In this document: positions 20,034 to 61,599 of the stretch, piece after piece
Position numbering within the stretch: the stretch's first letter is position 1
How the letters are laid out: each line of letters begins with the position of its first letter
Assembly (NCBI RefSeq): GCF_014280435.1
Contig: NZ_CP060388.1
Location: forward strand, 124,001-188,000
Origin: Sphingobium sp. KCTC 72723
GTDB taxonomy: Bacteria > Pseudomonadota > Alphaproteobacteria > Sphingomonadales > Sphingomonadaceae
DNA: 64,000 bases
Direction: 5' to 3'
Made by a program: the position numbers and the translations under genes
Notes under the pieces: generated by a model
What the model was told of the DNA's origin: nothing
Databases searched by the model: none
The model's input: only the letters and a program-made list of their open reading frames with translations

Positions 20034-20162
20034 CGTCACCCCAGCGAAGGCTGGGGTCTCAGGCGATGGCAAGATGAGTTTTGCCAAATAGCATTATGGA
20101 TTGCTTCAGGTCAGACCGTCGCGCGCCTCCGCCTGAGATGCCAGCCTTCGCTGGCATGACGG
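20034..20162. repeat. dispersed palindromic repeat, CGTCAYCCCAGC family (copy 1)
   Basis: Ends CGTCACCCCAGCGAAGGCTG (20034) and CAGCCTTCGCTGGCATGACG (to about 20161) form an interrupted inverted repeat. Each end is itself a small hairpin (CCCCAGCGAAGGCTGGGG; GCCAGCCTTCGCTGGC). An internal CTCAGGCG/CGCCTGAG pair adds a further stem. Fills the 240-base gap between two convergent genes. Other copies: 35543, 40892, 48702, 61483 and inside mtaB. Confidence 0.85.
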
Positions 20163-35542: not shown

Positions 35543-35625
35543 CGTCATCCCAGCGAAGGCTGGGATCCCACTTTTCTTCGCGGTGGTCAGAAGGAAGGGA
35601 GATGCCAGCCTGCGCTGGCATGACG
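35543..35625. repeat. dispersed palindromic repeat, CGTCAYCCCAGC family (copy 2)
   Basis: CGTCATCCCAGCGAAGGCTG at 35543 and CCAGCCTGCGCTGGCATGACG to 35625, inverted, separated by a variable core. It fills the ftsY-yciB junction and may act as a processing or attenuation hairpin in that transcript. Confidence 0.85.
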
Positions 35626-35636
35626 AAAGGAGGGCA

Positions 35637-36575
35637 TCACCGCGCATAGGCGGTCCCGGCAATGGCGCGGGCCATGTCGCCTGCATCGAACGGGCGCAGA
35701 TCCTCGATCTTTTCGCCCACGCCAATGGCATGGATGGGCAGGCGATATTTCTCCGCCGCCGCGACCAGCACGCCGCCGCGCGCCGTGCCGTCCAGCTTGG
35801 TCATGACCAGGCCAGTGACTTGCGCGACTTCCTTGAAAACCTCGATCTGGTTCAATGCATTTTGTCCCGTTGTGGCATCCAGCACCAACACAACGTCGTG
35901 GGGGGCCGCCGGGTTCAACCGGCCCAGCACTCGGCGCACCTTGGCCAGCTCGTCCATCAGCTCGGTCTTGTTCTGCAAACGCCCGGCAGTGTCCACGATC
36001 AGCACGTCGATGCCGGTCGCCGTTGCCTGCTTGACCGCGTCGAACACGATGCCCGCCGCGTCGCCGCCTTCCTTGCCCGCGACGATGGGGATGCCCAGGC
36101 GATCGGCCCATATTTTAAGCTGGCCGATGGCCGCCGCGCGGAACGTGTCGCCCGCCGCCAGCATCACGCCATAATCCTGTTCCAGAAACTGGCTGGCCAG
36201 CTTGGCGATGGTCGTGGTCTTGCCCGAACCATTGACGCCGATCACCAATATCACCTGCGGCCGGGGAAAAGCTTCTATTTCCAGCGGGCGGGCGACCGGG
36301 GCCAGCACCTTCTCGATTTCCTCCGCGATGATTTCGCGCAGATAATCCTCGGTCAGTTCCTTGTTAAAACGCCCGGCGGCCAGCCGTTCGCGCACGCGCC
36401 CGGCCATGGCGGGGCCAAGGTCGGTCATGATCAGCGCTTCCTCGATCTCGTCGAGGGTCTGGTCATCGAGTGCGGCCTTGCCGAAAAGGCCGGTGAGATT
36501 TTCGCCGAGCTTGTCGGACGTGCGCTTCAATCCGCCAAAGAGGCGATCGCGCCAGCTGGTTCCTGTGTCAGTCAT
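35637..36575 (-). CDS. ftsY: signal recognition particle receptor FtsY
   Basis: 312 residues, a compact form lacking the long acidic A domain. NG domain: GVNGSGKTTTIAKLA (G1), AAGDTFRAAAIGQL, VLIVDTAGRLQNK (G3), VMTKLDGTARGG (G4) and the closing GVGEKIEDLRPFDA. It docks SRP-ribosome complexes to the membrane; its partner gene ffh lies 5 kb away on the other strand. The ATG overlaps the mtaB stop. Confidence 0.95.
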   Translation of the reverse strand: MTDTGTSWRDRLFGGLKRTSDKLGENLTGLFGKAALDDQTLDEIEEALIMTDLGPAMAGRVRERLAAGRFNKELTEDYLREIIAEEIEKVLAPVARPLEIEAFPRPQVILVIGVNGSGKTTTIAKLASQFLEQDYGVMLAAGDTFRAAAIGQLKIWADRLGIPIVAGKEGGDAAGIVFDAVKQATATGIDVLIVDTAGRLQNKTELMDELAKVRRVLGRLNPAAPHDVVLVLDATTGQNALNQIEVFKEVAQVTGLVMTKLDGTARGGVLVAAAEKYRLPIHAIGVGEKIEDLRPFDAGDMARAIAGTAYAR

Positions 36576-37945
36576 TGCCCGACCTCTTGCGCGATCAGGA
36601 CGCCCTTCTCAAGCCCCGTGATCGTTGCGGCCACGATGGCGCCGGGCGTTTGCGGCGTGGCAAAACGGACCGGCGCGAAATTTTCGGCGTGGCCGCGCGC
36701 GCCGCTCAGTTCGACCAGCATCGATTGGCGCGTGCCGACCAGCGATGCCAGCCACGCTTCCCGTTGCCCTTCGCACGCGGCGCGCAGGCGGGCGGCGCGC
36801 GCCTTGATAATTGCGCGATCCACCTGCGGCATCCGCGCGGCGGGGGTGCCGGTGCGCGGCGAATAGGGAAAGATATGGCCGTGGACGATCTGGCAATCGG
36901 CCACCAGCGCCAGGCTGTTTTCGAACATCGCGTCATCTTCGGTCGGGAAACCGGCGATGATGTCCGCGCCAATGCTGATGTCCGGGCGCGCGCTTTTGAG
37001 CCGCTCCACGATGCGCACCGCGTCGGCCCGGCTGTGGCGGCGCTTCATGCGCTTGAGGATCATGTCGTCGCCCGCCTGCAACGACAGATGCAAATGCGGC
37101 ATCATGCGCGGTTCGTGGGCGATCAGGTCGAACAGGCGTTCGTCAATTTCCACACTGTCGATGGACGACAGGCGCAGGCGGGGCAGGTCCGGCACGCCCT
37201 TCAATATCCGTTCGACCAGAGAACCCAGCGACGGGCTGCCCGGCAGGTCGGGGCCATAGCTGGTGACATCCACCCCGGTCAGCACGATTTCGCGATAGCC
37301 CGCATCCACCAGTTCGCGTGCCTTGTCCACGACTGCGCCGGCCGGAACGGAGCGGCTGTTGCCCCTGCCATAGGGGATGATGCAAAAAGTGCAGCGATGG
37401 TCGCAACCATTTTGCACCTCCAGAAAGGCGCGGGCATGATCGGCAAAGGCGCTGGCCATATGGGGCGCAGTGTCGCGCACGGCCATGATGTCGGCGACGC
37501 GGATTTTCTCCGGCATTATCCCGGCGAACGCCGGGCTTTCGCGTTCTTCACTCCGCGTCCTCTGCGCCTCTGCGCGCAAAATATTCTCTTCGCGCAGAGG
37601 CGCAGAGGACGCTGAGAAAAAAGGGTCCGGCTGTCGCCGGGATGACGGAAGATAGGCTTGCGCCTCCAGCTTTTCCCGGTTGCCCAGCACCAGATCGACT
37701 TCGGCCATTGCCCCAAAGGTTTCCGGGTCGGTCTGCGCGGCGCATCCGGTGACGATGATCCGTGCGTCGGGCTGTTCGCGCCGGGCGCGGCGGATCGCCT
37801 GCCGGGTCTGACGCACCGCCTCTGCCGTCACGGCGCAACTGTTGACGACGACCAGCCCGTCCTGCGCGCCAGCCATATCCCTTATGGCCTCGCTCTCCGC
37901 AATGTTGAGGCGGCAGCCCAGCGTGATGATGTCGGGTCCGGCCAT
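36572..37945 (-). CDS. mtaB: tRNA t6A37 methylthiotransferase MtaB with an in-frame repeat insert
   Basis: 457 residues. N-terminal UPF0004 domain with TLGCRLN, NSCAVTAEA and TGCAAQT (three cluster cysteines), radical-SAM C-x3-C-x2-C in CDHRCTFCIIPYGRG, and a TRAM-like C-terminus. It adds a methylthio group to N6-threonylcarbamoyl-adenosine 37 of tRNA. Residues about 100-144 (SSRRQPDPFFSASSAP ... SPAFAGIMPEK) are not family sequence: they are translated from a palindromic repeat at 37515-37648 inserted in frame between the first domain and the radical-SAM core. The enzyme should still fold if this is an exposed linker. Confidence 0.9.
   Translation of the reverse strand: MAGPDIITLGCRLNIAESEAIRDMAGAQDGLVVVNSCAVTAEAVRQTRQAIRRARREQPDARIIVTGCAAQTDPETFGAMAEVDLVLGNREKLEAQAYLPSSRRQPDPFFSASSAPLREENILRAEAQRTRSEERESPAFAGIMPEKIRVADIMAVRDTAPHMASAFADHARAFLEVQNGCDHRCTFCIIPYGRGNSRSVPAGAVVDKARELVDAGYREIVLTGVDVTSYGPDLPGSPSLGSLVERILKGVPDLPRLRLSSIDSVEIDERLFDLIAHEPRMMPHLHLSLQAGDDMILKRMKRRHSRADAVRIVERLKSARPDISIGADIIAGFPTEDDAMFENSLALVADCQIVHGHIFPYSPRTGTPAARMPQVDRAIIKARAARLRAACEGQREAWLASLVGTRQSMLVELSGARGHAENFAPVRFATPQTPGAIVAATITGLEKGVLIAQEVGQ
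37515..37648. repeat. palindromic repeat inside mtaB coding sequence
   Basis: Outer ends ATCCCGGCGAACGCCGGG and CCGGCTGTCGCCGGGATGACGG match the organisation of the CGTCATCCC repeats. The core is a perfect 22-bp inverted repeat (37555-37576 with 37591-37612, beginning GCGTCCTCTGCGCC) around a 14-base AT-rich loop. The total length (about 134 bases plus the junction) leaves the mtaB frame open. Confidence 0.85.
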
Positions 37946-37948
37946 GGC

Positions 37949-38749
37949 TTAAAAGCGCGACCAGTCCGCCTCGCCATCGAACACATGGGTGGCCGGACCA
38001 GTCATGCTGATAGTGCCGCCCGGCGTCCAGTCGATGATCAGGTCACCGCCCGGCAGGCTGACGGTCACGGGACCGCGCACCAGCTTGCGGCGCACGGCGG
38101 CAACGGCCGTGGCGCACGCCCCGGTGCCGCAGGCGCGGGTCAGGCCAGCGCCCCTTTCCCAAACGATCAGGCGGATATGATCGTCGCCCATAACCTGTGC
38201 GAAATTCACGTTCACGCGGGCGGGAAAGAGCGGGTCGGTTTCGATGATCGGGCCAAGCCGGGCCGTGTCCACCGCGTCCAGATCCTCCACGAAGAAGATG
38301 ACATGCGGATTGCCGACATTGACGGCGGCAGGCGCAGGCAGGTCTTCCCAACTCGCGCTCATGGTCAGCGTGTCCATGGCATAGGCCAGCGGGATCGCGT
38401 CCCAATCGAAACGCGGCGCCCCCATATCGACGCGCGCGCCGCCATCGATCACCTTTGCGTCGAGCAGGCCCGCGCGCGTGCGGATCAGCACATCGCGGCC
38501 TACGAACAACGGCACGCAGCGGGTGGCGTTGCCGCACGCCTCCACTTCGCTGCCGTCGGCGTTGAATATCTGCATCGAAACATCTGCATCGTCGGCGTTG
38601 CCAATCAGGATCAACTGGTCGCACCCGATCCCGGCATGACGATCGGCAATAGCGCGCGCGCGCCCCTGCGTCATCTCCACCGCATCGACGCGCGCGTCGA
38701 TCACGACAAAGTCGTTGCCCAGGCCATGCATTTTGGAAAAGCGTCCCAT
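37949..38749 (-). CDS. dapF: diaminopimelate epimerase
   Basis: 266 residues from ATG 38749 (MGRFSKMHGLGNDF); the frame upstream runs into the inverted repeat and is not native. The two catalytic cysteines are in EACGNATRC and TRACGTGACA. It converts LL- to meso-diaminopimelate for lysine and peptidoglycan synthesis. First gene of dapF-mtaB-ftsY-yciB; mtaB starts four bases after its stop. Confidence 0.94.
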   Translation of the reverse strand: MGRFSKMHGLGNDFVVIDARVDAVEMTQGRARAIADRHAGIGCDQLILIGNADDADVSMQIFNADGSEVEACGNATRCVPLFVGRDVLIRTRAGLLDAKVIDGGARVDMGAPRFDWDAIPLAYAMDTLTMSASWEDLPAPAAVNVGNPHVIFFVEDLDAVDTARLGPIIETDPLFPARVNVNFAQVMGDDHIRLIVWERGAGLTRACGTGACATAVAAVRRKLVRGPVTVSLPGGDLIIDWTPGGTISMTGPATHVFDGEADWSRF

Positions 38750-38794
38750 GATGGCCGCGCATGTAGGGTATAGCGGGTCAAAATGCCACAACCT

Positions 38795-38825
38795 CCGTTC
38801 GGGCTGAGCTTGTCGAAGCCTTGCC
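38795..38825 (+). repeat. left inverted repeat flanking GIY-YIG gene
   Basis: A 31-base sequence beginning CCGTTCGGGCTGAGCTTGTC whose reverse complement matches 39127-39157 at 29 of 31 positions. It lies 19 bases before the GIY-YIG start codon and 45 bases upstream of dapF. Confidence 0.9.
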
Positions 38826-38844
38826 TTTCTGATTTCCTCCCGCA

Positions 38845-39183
38845 ATGCCCTTCTGGACCTATATGCTCCATTGCAACCGTGGTGCTCTTTATGTCGGGCA
38901 CACCGACAATTTGGAGCAACGTATCGCCCAGCATGAGCATGGCGCTATTCCAGGATTTACGGCAGACCGTTTGCCGGTGAAGCTGATCTGGTCTGAATAT
39001 TTTTCCACCCGTATCGAAGCGCTTGAGATGGAGCGGCGAATCAAAGGCTGGAGTCGCGCCAAGAAGCTGGCGTTGGTTCGTGGTGATTGGGATCGGATCA
39101 GTCTGTTGGCGCGCAGCAAGGGGAAGGGCAAGGCTTCGACAGGCTCCGCCCGAACGGGAAAAGAGGATTGTCATGGCGATTAA
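38845..39183 (+). CDS. GIY-YIG nuclease family protein (COG2827 type)
   Basis: 112 residues. The GIY-YIG core has YMLHCNRGALYVGHTDNL (Y-M-L and Y-V-G replacing GIY/YIG), the Arg in QRIAQHEHG, and the catalytic Glu region EALEMERRIKGWSRAKK. It is the single-domain, UvrC-N-like type predicted to nick DNA. The last 20 residues (KGKGKASTGSARTGKED) are translated from the right inverted repeat, so the repeat sets the C-terminus. The start lacks a clear ribosome site. The 3' end overlaps the higA start by 11 bases. The function of these stand-alone nucleases is unknown; the flanking repeats suggest the gene and repeats move or are maintained together. Confidence 0.85.
   Translation: MPFWTYMLHCNRGALYVGHTDNLEQRIAQHEHGAIPGFTADRLPVKLIWSEYFSTRIEALEMERRIKGWSRAKKLALVRGDWDRISLLARSKGKGKASTGSARTGKEDCHGD
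39127..39157 (+). repeat. right inverted repeat overlapping GIY-YIG 3' end
   Basis: A 31-base sequence beginning GGCAAGGCTTCGACAGGCTC, inverted relative to 38795-38825 with two mismatches. It lies inside the nuclease reading frame and 15 bases before the higA start. Confidence 0.9.
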
Positions 39184-39469
39184 GATGCACGCTTCGCTGG
39201 CGGTCCATCCCGGCGATTGGCTCAAGACCGAAATTGTCGCGGCGCATGGCCTCAAAGTCGGCGATCTGGCCGATCATCTGTGCGTCACGCTCCAGACCGT
39301 CAGCCGCCTGCTCAATCAGCGGCAGGATTTGACGGCGGACATGGCGATCCGGTTCGAAAAGCTGTTCGGCATTGACGCGGATACGCTGGTGCGGATGCAG
39401 ATGCGTCACGATCTGTCACTGGCGCGGCAACATGCCGATGCGCTGGAGGTCAAACCGCTGGCGGCGTGA
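39173..39469 (+). CDS. higA: HigA-family antitoxin-like regulator without HigB
   Basis: 98 residues from ATG 39173, with AGAGGA upstream. The VHPGDWLKTEIVAAHGLKVGDLA opening (in part) and the helix-turn-helix VTLQTVSRLLNQRQDLTADMAIRFEKLFG are the HigA addiction-module pattern. Normal higBA pairs have a RelE-like toxin immediately upstream; here that position is held by the GIY-YIG gene, which overlaps it by 11 bases. It may be an orphan, or may control the nuclease gene. Confidence 0.82.
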   Translation: MAIKMHASLAVHPGDWLKTEIVAAHGLKVGDLADHLCVTLQTVSRLLNQRQDLTADMAIRFEKLFGIDADTLVRMQMRHDLSLARQHADALEVKPLAA

Positions 39470-39472
39470 TGT

Positions 39473-40870
39473 TTAGCCCGCCACCACAGCCCGCTTCTGC
39501 CCATAGAGAAAATATACCGCCAGCCCCACCGCGTTCCACGCGAAGCAGGCCATGATCGTCTGCATCGGCAGGCTGATGAACAGATAGGCGCATCCCCCGA
39601 TCGCGCCCAGCCCCACGAACCACGCGGCAGGCGTGCGGAACGGACGGCGCAAGTTGGGCGAGCGGCGGCGCAGGACGAGGAGGCAGGCACCCACGGCGGT
39701 GAATGCGATCAGCGTGCCCGCATTTGCCAGCGCGGCAATCTCGTCAATCGGCAGCAGGCCCGCGATGATCGCGACCAGCACGGCCGTCACGATGGTGATC
39801 CGCACCGGCGTTCCGCGCTTGGAAATCTTGGCCAGCGATTGCGGCAAAAACCCGTCGCGCGCCATGACCAGAAATATGCGGCTCTGGCCATAGAGGAAGC
39901 CGAGCAGCACAGTGGGCAGGGCGATGACGGCGGCGATGGCGACGATCCGCGCCACGCTGCCCTGACCCATTTCGCGCAGGATGAGGGCCAGCGGTTCGGG
40001 GCTGTCGGCAAAGCGGGTGAAGGGCATCGCGCCGATCGCGGCGGCAGCGACCAGGACATAGATGATGGTGCAGACGATCAGCGACCCGACGATGCCGATG
40101 GCCAGGTCGCGGTCCGGGTTCTTGGCTTCTTCCGCCGCCGTCGAAATCGCGTCGAAACCGTAAAAGGCGAAGAAGATGATCGCGGCGGCGGCCATGACGC
40201 CGCGCTCGACCCCGTCCGGTCCCATATGTTTGGCAAAGCCGAACGGCATGAACGGCTCCAAATTCTGCGCGTCGAAGGCAGGCAGGGCGAACCAGACGAA
40301 CAGGCTCAACGTCGCGATCTTGATCAGCACCAGTACGCTGTTCAGCCGCGCGCTTTCATGGGTGCCGAGCATCAGCAGGCCCGCGACTACCGCAATGATG
40401 AAGATGGCGGGCAGGTTGATGATGCCGCCCAGTTCCGGCCCCTGCGTCAGGCTGACGGGAAAACCGATGCCGGTCAGCAACGGCGCGGCATAGCCCGACC
40501 AGCCGACCGCCACCGTCGACACGACCAGCGAATATTCCAGAATGAGGCTCCACCCCACGACCCAGGCGATCCCTTCGCCCAGCGCGACATAGCTATAGCT
40601 GTAGGCGCTGCCCGCCGCGGGCATCATGGTCGACAATTCGGCATAGGCGAGGGCGGCGCAGGCGCAGATCGCGCCCGCAATGGCAAAGGAGAGCAGAACG
40701 GCAGGCCCGGCCCGGTCCGCGCCGACGCCGATCAGCGTCAATATGCCCGTGCCGACGATCGCCCCCACGCCCAGCGCCAGCAGATGCGGCCAGGACAGGG
40801 TTCGCGCCAGCCGCTGCTGGTCGCCGCTCGGCGTCATCGCCTCCATCGGCTTGCGGCGTGTCCAGCTCAT
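39473..40870 (-). CDS. APC-superfamily amino acid permease
   Basis: 465 residues with 12 or so membrane helices. The first helix contains GVGAIVGTGILTLIG, the cationic-amino-acid-transporter-like substrate motif, and helix 6 contains FFAFYGFDAISTAAEEAKNP (in part), diagnostic of the CAT/YhdG subgroup. Imports amino acids, specificity unknown. Its stop is only a few bases from the convergent higA stop. Confidence 0.88.
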   Translation of the reverse strand: MSWTRRKPMEAMTPSGDQQRLARTLSWPHLLALGVGAIVGTGILTLIGVGADRAGPAVLLSFAIAGAICACAALAYAELSTMMPAAGSAYSYSYVALGEGIAWVVGWSLILEYSLVVSTVAVGWSGYAAPLLTGIGFPVSLTQGPELGGIINLPAIFIIAVVAGLLMLGTHESARLNSVLVLIKIATLSLFVWFALPAFDAQNLEPFMPFGFAKHMGPDGVERGVMAAAAIIFFAFYGFDAISTAAEEAKNPDRDLAIGIVGSLIVCTIIYVLVAAAAIGAMPFTRFADSPEPLALILREMGQGSVARIVAIAAVIALPTVLLGFLYGQSRIFLVMARDGFLPQSLAKISKRGTPVRITIVTAVLVAIIAGLLPIDEIAALANAGTLIAFTAVGACLLVLRRRSPNLRRPFRTPAAWFVGLGAIGGCAYLFISLPMQTIMACFAWNAVGLAVYFLYGQKRAVVAG

Positions 40871-48701: not shown

Positions 48702-48785
48702 CGTCATTCCAGTGCAGGCTGGAATCTCTGTTCTGGCGGCCATGCGCGCAGGAAAGTGAGATCCCAGCCTGCGCTGGGATGACGG
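48702..48785. repeat. dispersed palindromic repeat, CGTCAYCCCAGC family (copy 4)
   Basis: CGTCATTCCAGTGCAGGCTG at 48702 and CCCAGCCTGCGCTGGGATGACGG ending 48785 are inverted relative to each other, with compensating changes in each end hairpin (TTCCAG...CTGGAA; CCCAGC...GCTGGG). It fills the gap between two minus-strand genes. Confidence 0.85.
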
Positions 48786-61482: not shown

Positions 61483-61599
61483 CGTCACCCCAGCGAAGGC
61501 TGGGGTCTCAGGCGGCAGTAGAATGAGGCCAGTCGTCCTGCGCTATCCGTTGACGCAGCGTGCGCCTGCCTGAGATGCCAGCCTTCGCTGGCATGACGG
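61483..61599. repeat. dispersed palindromic repeat, CGTCAYCCCAGC family (copy 5)
   Basis: CGTCACCCCAGCGAAGGCTG at 61483 and GCCAGCCTTCGCTGGCATGACGG ending about 61599 are nearly identical to the ends of copy 1 (20034), including CTCAGGCG. The core differs between copies. It separates rplJ from the RSH gene. Confidence 0.88.

Follow-up and report, generated by a model that had tools for sequence, protein, structure and literature searches.

A small GIY-YIG nuclease gene between inverted REP-like repeats in Sphingobium: a putative mobile unit resembling REPtrons

Described REP systems, homing nucleases and the window unit

The closest described counterparts of the locus reported here are the REPtrons, which associate a RAYT (TnpA-REP) enzyme gene with flanking REPs of the GTAG type; in the available parts of the source articles, they appear as repeat-specific systems accompanied by many dispersed REPs, often arranged as dimers (PMC3733652, PMC8266576). 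Another group of REPs, tagged by CGTC, "apparently lack a dedicated transposase" according to Di Nocera et al. 2013 (PMC3733652), whose accessible text mentions S. chlorophenolicum, S. wittichii and N. aromaticivorans and holds no occurrence of the term GIY-YIG. Free-standing GIY-YIG nucleases located between genes are known from the intronless homing of the phage T4 Seg proteins, during which non-homologous resident DNA is replaced, and flanking REPs go unmentioned in the available portions of the two reports (PMC1564403, PMC2988022). The same portion of the former states that no GIY-YIG homing endonucleases were found in Alphaproteobacteria and asks whether other GIY-YIG members act as molecular parasites (PMC1564403). 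Finally, a repair role is proposed for COG2827 genes of Caulobacter in the accessible part of PMC1839093.

The window analysed here is a stretch of 64,000 nucleotides of Sphingobium sp. KCTC 72723 (contig NZ_CP060388.1, positions 124,001 to 188,000 of the forward strand), and window coordinates are counted from its first letter. It contains a small GIY-YIG nuclease gene (38845..39183, + strand; 112 aa; PF01541, 63.5 bits), for which a profile search returned no NCBIfam match, together with two REP-like arms. The left arm (38795..38829, + strand) carries a CCGTTCG tag pointing outward, followed by a CTGAGC..TGTCGAAG core, and the right arm (39123..39157, - strand) is inverted and lies inside the nuclease coding frame, which reads through it. 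The segments 38795-38825 and 39127-39157 match at 29 of 31 positions; extended without gaps, the arms reach 35 nt at 91% and stand 293 nt apart. An earlier description made from the letters of the window alone (the sequence-only reading) had reported a nuclease gene between inverted repeats of this quality, the in-frame right arm and the order of the genes, all of which are present as described. Terminal inverted repeats are thus found on the unit, as they are on an insertion sequence, and the segment 38795-39157 would represent, as part of the explanation that we favour, a compact mobile unit of ~0.36 kb made of a GIY-YIG gene between two inverted REP-like repeats. The catalytic residues expected of a GIY-YIG homing endonuclease are in place: 99-100% of 137 proteins retain Arg, His and Glu, the Tyr and Gly motif of the same proteins being partly imposed by the regular expression used for their extraction.

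With REPtrons, the unit and its relatives share an enzyme gene flanked by REPs, numerous dispersed REPs that often form dimers, and an agreement between enzyme type and REP type that is detailed below. They differ by their enzyme, a GIY-YIG nuclease (PF01541) instead of a Y1/HUH transposase, by the tags of their arms, which are CCGTTCG-like or CGTC and not GTAG, and by the resident DNA that seems to be displaced at the window locus; the differences in enzyme and tag set them apart from RAYT REPtrons. The CGTC superfamily was recognised by its CGTC tag, a stem of 8-9 bp, a loop of 4-5 nt and a CCA-like tail. Many nuclease arms of the B type belong there, with a CGTC tag, a palindromic stem and a CCA-like tail (tag and tail judged by eye), and short B pairs are mostly head-to-head as in that superfamily, whereas the arms of the window unit fall outside it by their CCGTTCG tag, and the survey reports, in its available text, no dedicated enzyme for these repeats (PMC3733652). 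Like the T4 Seg genes, the window gene is free-standing between its neighbours and resident DNA would have been replaced, and unlike them it has flanking REPs. Overall, the locus looks like a REPtron-like element with a GIY-YIG nuclease, which by analogy may work in a way that resembles a REPtron or an intronless homing element.

We take the small GIY-YIG genes considered here to be of the COG2827 type, and presumably the COG2827/YhbQ/YazA proteins, which are also small and have the same domain, are linked to these PF01541 proteins as a family. Unlike the proteins studied here, they are described as possible repair back-ups or Slx1 relatives, and not as REP partners, in the available parts of the articles concerned (PMC1839093, PMC7017083). 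No paper linking GIY-YIG genes with REPs was found among the papers listed in the literature searched (titles and the beginnings of abstracts, preprints and most subscription journals lying outside its scope); the GIY-YIG/REP association is real and general and, as far as this search reaches, undescribed.

Framing of GIY-YIG genes and repeat types

Seven PF01541 matches were found in the window genome, corresponding to six small genes and to one domain in a 679-aa frame that was taken as UvrC. A repeat finder detected bracketing inverted repeats at the loci L002 to L005 and none at L006, which scored 18 in a later inverted-repeat scan. Framing was scored within 300 nt on each side (match +1, mismatch -2) with a threshold of at least 14. 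Named genomes provided 53 loci, 51 of them with enough flank, and 34 of these 51 related loci were framed, compared with none of 408 shifted positions taken within them. The survey was extended to a family set of 99 genomes of the same family with 309 PF01541 matches, UvrC included, from which 148 loci were tested (146 among the matches listed, the best by E-value, plus L005 and L006). Framing was found at 127 of the 148 loci vs 4 of 592 shifted positions, and at a score of at least 16 these figures became 121/148 vs 0/592; at least one framed locus occurs in 58 of the 63 genomes that contribute the 148 loci. For the control family ParE (PF05016) in the same 99 genomes, none of 30 loci and 1 of 120 of their own shifted positions were framed. 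Chance framing is ruled out by the shifted controls together with this control family. Outside the family, 64 of 66 phylum-wide loci were testable, of which 18 were framed (vs 0 of 256 shifted positions) and 46 were not. The association is strong in the family and partial elsewhere. A search of related genomes for the same flanking repeats had been suggested along with the first description of the locus, and inverted repeats do frame most of the GIY-YIG loci tested in the family.

The framed units have a median length of 389 bp (IQR 368.5-411.5, range 348-718, n=119). In 25 of these 119 the nuclease frame continues across the right arm, as it does in the window, in 33 it ends within that arm, and in 61 it ends ahead of it. 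At the fourth small GIY-YIG gene of the window genome (L004, G000:C1:4167709-4170897), the C-terminal part looks disrupted by eye, and the arms are nonetheless 97% complementary. In Bosea, Methylobacterium and related genomes (L049-L053, L056, L058), the nucleases are framed mostly by repeats of another kind, which contain CATCCTGAG. In the genome of an uncultured Dehalococcoidia, framing also occurs at two GIY-YIG loci (L037 and L038; scores of 18 and 16), hinting at a spread beyond Pseudomonadota.

Repeat type follows nuclease type. A protein was obtained for 119 of the 127 framed loci, of which 13 were unlabelled and 2 ambiguous, leaving 104 for comparison. For 98 of the 104 nucleases, the closest one in a different genome shares their repeat type, the labels having been defined after inspection of the arms and related loci being counted more than once. 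Full shuffling of the labels gave a mean of 25.2 same-type matches (maximum 45), and shuffling within genomes a mean of 59.3 (maximum 79). Within the 24 genomes that have at least two labelled types, the nearest nuclease is of the same type in 71 of 74 cases. In the same vein, A repeats reach a median of 36 in genomes with an A1 unit vs 4 in those with other labelled units (p=7e-4); for Bg repeats, the copy number showed no significant difference according to whether a genome carries a labelled Bg unit (27 where it does vs 14 where it does not, p=0.25).

Both kinds of repeats are multicopy. The A-type core pattern occurs 21 times in the window genome and is present in 66 of the 99 family genomes, its reversed control giving 3 matches across all 99. 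The window genome has 108 occurrences of the palindromic B pattern (2 for the reversed control), and 94 of the 99 genomes have one or more, low B counts meaning little since the reversed control reaches up to 5 per genome. Repeat load rises with the number of GIY-YIG matches (Spearman 0.66, 99 genomes): the 24 genomes with a single match, presumably UvrC, have medians of 0 for A and 2 for B, and the 75 genomes with at least two have 9 and 21 (p=3.5e-9 for the sum of both repeats between these two groups), and loads of at least 20 repeats are seen in 1 of the former 24 vs 51 of the latter 75.

In the window itself, a solo CGTC-tagged REP dimer with outward tags (35543..35625, no strand assigned) forms a predicted strong DNA hairpin (z -5.17), and other CGTC-tagged REP pairs, also without strand, lie at 20034..20161, 48702..48784 and 61483..61598. 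The B arms of L005 and L003, the latter with a GTG-type tag, fold with z-scores of -3.33 and -2.26 (stem 8, loop 4), and the A arms of the window unit fold poorly alone (z -0.49 and +0.80). Among 112 distinct A1 repeats, two stem pairs display compensatory changes (C-G 69 and G-C 35 for one; T-A 39, G-C 35 and C-G 24 for the other), the next two pairs of the stem holding in 75 and 38 of the 112 only. In the examined loci, short neighbouring B pairs (at most 100 nt) are outward-tagged in 20 of 29 cases, and short A pairs of the same span show no uniform orientation, 12 of 50 pointing outward. By eye, outward pairs and units have sub-terminal sequence in common.

Nuclease-free REP pairs are common in the examined loci and the biochemical link between nuclease and REPs is putative, which would suit a scenario in which another enzyme moves the REPs and the nuclease genes travel as passengers trapped between two copies. 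We consider this scenario unlikely in view of the uniform unit length and of the type matching. Moreover, the available text of Di Nocera et al. 2013 (PMC3733652) describes CGTC repeats as lacking an association with transposase genes, and a search of the window genome for PF01797 (Y1/HUH transposase) gave no match at E <= 0.001. On this search, a RAYT was rejected as the REP mover in that genome.

Gain, loss and exchange at the trmJ-nrdR and dapF sites

The gene names used below (trmJ, nrdR, dapF, mtaB and the permease) are those that we assume from our own reading of the sequence or from recall. At the trmJ-nrdR site, which harbours the L002 unit in the window genome, 30 of 61 same-genus genomes were read. 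Five of these 30 sites are essentially empty (7-60 bp), one contains repeats only (L351), one a decayed nuclease (L358), and 23 a nuclease over most of its length, that of L339 falling into two pieces and being possibly frameshifted. By eye, the units present there split into three nuclease/repeat subtypes, and several of them are adjoined by broken arms of another subtype. Placed on a trmJ tree of 29 rows (L337, at a contig end, was dropped; L351 and L358 were assigned to type iii from their arms), site type requires 17 changes for a minimum possible of 3, with a mean of 15.9 for shuffled labels and 182 of 200 shuffles as low as the observed value. Presence and type at trmJ-nrdR are without phylogenetic signal, and fixed sites gain and lose units. 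Flank co-conversion gave no signal among 22 loci, where old tracts could have decayed, and no clean insertion with target duplication was seen, the empty trmJ sites being too diverged for base-exact junctions. In L333 and L334, old left arms seem interrupted ~13 nt in from the CCGTTCG tag (three breaks, by eye), which would fit cutting inside the REP.

The lack of phylogenetic signal in presence and type at one site is difficult to reconcile with a housekeeping repair nuclease, a UvrC-like back-up next to which REPs would merely collect between genes; the same holds for the type matching that survives label shuffling within genomes, and for the shifted positions and ParE genes of the same genomes, which are almost never framed. 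Such a function is therefore, in our opinion, quite improbable, even if the accessible part of PMC1839093 proposes a repair role and mentions an SOS box at one Caulobacter gene, and even if the 46 unframed loci out of 64 in the phylum-wide set speak in its favour.

At the second site, the unit stands between dapF (37949..38749, - strand), the conserved left neighbour, and an orphan higA antitoxin gene (39173..39469, + strand; TIGR02607, 71.2 bits), itself followed by an amino-acid permease-like gene (39473..40870, - strand), which is the right neighbour in many relatives. The ORF that precedes higA in the window is the nuclease, with no higB there, and the 11-bp overlap between both frames (39173-39183) was confirmed, in agreement with what had been noticed from the letters. 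The dapF site was surveyed in 30 of the 59 same-genus genomes with a dapF match. The unit is present in two of these 30, with higA in the window genome and without it in L379, whose compared stretch reads as L008 from Sphingobium lactosutens; the dapF-unit-permease arrangement also exists in that species. Two loci contain an A-repeat pair then higA, four contain higB-higA without the nuclease, one a higB fragment, and 21 none of these arrangements. In L377 (identical to L210), a REP pair surrounds an internally deleted nuclease whose start and end are still recognisable.

The comparison with relatives gives a simple account of the orphan antitoxin gene. In L207, the ORF preceding higA is HigB (PF05015, 45.1 bits), which the HigB proteins of the other three higBA relatives match at 81-88%. 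The nuclease frame terminates on the same TAA as higB, and its 11-bp overlap with higA is the overlap that higB makes with higA in these relatives; the segment 39163..39183 (+ strand), including the stop codon at 39181-39183, is likely a relic of the displaced higB 3' end that now terminates the nuclease frame. Ending on the higB stop codon explains both the 11-bp overlap and the orphan HigA. Most likely, to judge from the relatives, the unit displaced higB at the dapF site and left HigA orphaned; from this unrooted comparison we infer the direction of change, and the loss of higB by insertion rather than earlier. No target-site duplication is evident by eye at this site, and in the four higBA relatives neither the A nor the B pattern occurs over the 700 nt that lie upstream of dapF, so that no pre-existing REP target is seen for the window insertion.

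The sequence-only reading had also proposed that the nuclease is a DNA-cutting toxin with HigA as its repressor or antidote, a pairing that the 11-bp overlap and gene order of the window locus alone would suggest and that is extremely improbable: it was rejected on synteny, because the overlap and the stop codon belong to higB, because higA is kept behind an ordinary higB with the nuclease absent in four of the 30 same-genus dapF loci, an outcome that the sequence-only reading itself had named as a refutation, and because the unit occurs without higA in L379/L008, so that the two genes are not kept together. A HigA query also found three places in the window genome, the two others of which are not near the other five small GIY-YIG genes, and nothing supports a repression or neutralisation of the nuclease by HigA.

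Other features of the region deserve mention. Upstream of dapF, its frame continues without a stop across the left REP arm as far as a TTG at 38845 (window 38750-38845); automatic annotation may give dapF too long an N-terminus, its start being probably at 38749. In L389, another same-genus genome, a CGTC-type REP dimer lies upstream of dapF, which indicates that this intergenic site takes different repeat types. Within the mtaB-like gene (window 36572-37945), an in-frame stretch at ~37470-37650, with a translation ending in PAFAGIMPEK, and the DNA around 37647 resemble a CGTC-type REP inserted within the gene.

Proposed mechanism and significance for bacterial repeats

The comparison across genomes establishes the framing, the type matching, the multicopy repeats with their copy-number association, and the presence/absence and type change at a fixed site. 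As part of the best explanation of the locus, the window unit would be one of a large class found in sphingomonads and some other alphaproteobacteria. In the mechanism that we propose, the nuclease would recognise its own REP type and nick or cut there, repair would then copy the unit in, and this homing-like replacement could remove resident DNA. Resident DNA does appear displaced, with the loss of higB at dapF and the type changes at trmJ-nrdR, the cognate nature of these sites being putative. The same enzyme would also serve the short REP dimers, as forms that are non-autonomous or have lost internal sequence, and HigA would be a bystander left over from higBA. We regard this explanation as a whole (a mobile REP-bounded unit, homing-like copying, a displaced higB, a bystander HigA and non-autonomous REP dimers) as probable, our confidence being slightly tempered by the higBA relatives, in which no REP target is visible, and by cognate-site replacement, which is only putative. 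Of the initial interpretation of the locus, the mobile unit analogous to REPs with their RAYT enzymes is upheld by framing, type matching and gain and loss at fixed sites, and the toxin-antitoxin pair with HigA is abandoned.

On a broader scale, we lean, if only slightly, towards the view that CGTC-tagged and CTGAG..TCGAAG REPs have their missing dedicated enzymes in the small GIY-YIG nucleases of the COG2827 type. These nucleases and REPs would form together a distinct class of mobile elements of ~0.4 kb that spread by REP-directed, homing-like replacement and are convergent with HUH REPtrons, and their internally deleted relatives would account for a large part of the short interspersed repeats in alphaproteobacteria.

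REPs are common repeats of bacterial genomes, and the enzyme of the CGTC superfamily is apparently missing according to the one survey found. Since a nuclease family is framed type by type by such repeats, the question of the missing enzyme becomes directly testable. If the explanation is true, REP-like elements arose also with an enzyme chemistry unrelated to that of HUH transposases, and GIY-YIG homing nucleases would be linked with REP biology. Many annotated small GIY-YIG genes, read-through C-termini and orphaned neighbours of these genomes would then be traces of mobile DNA. To conclude, our results point to a very small mobile element and put forward a candidate for the enzyme that serves a large class of repeats in bacteria.
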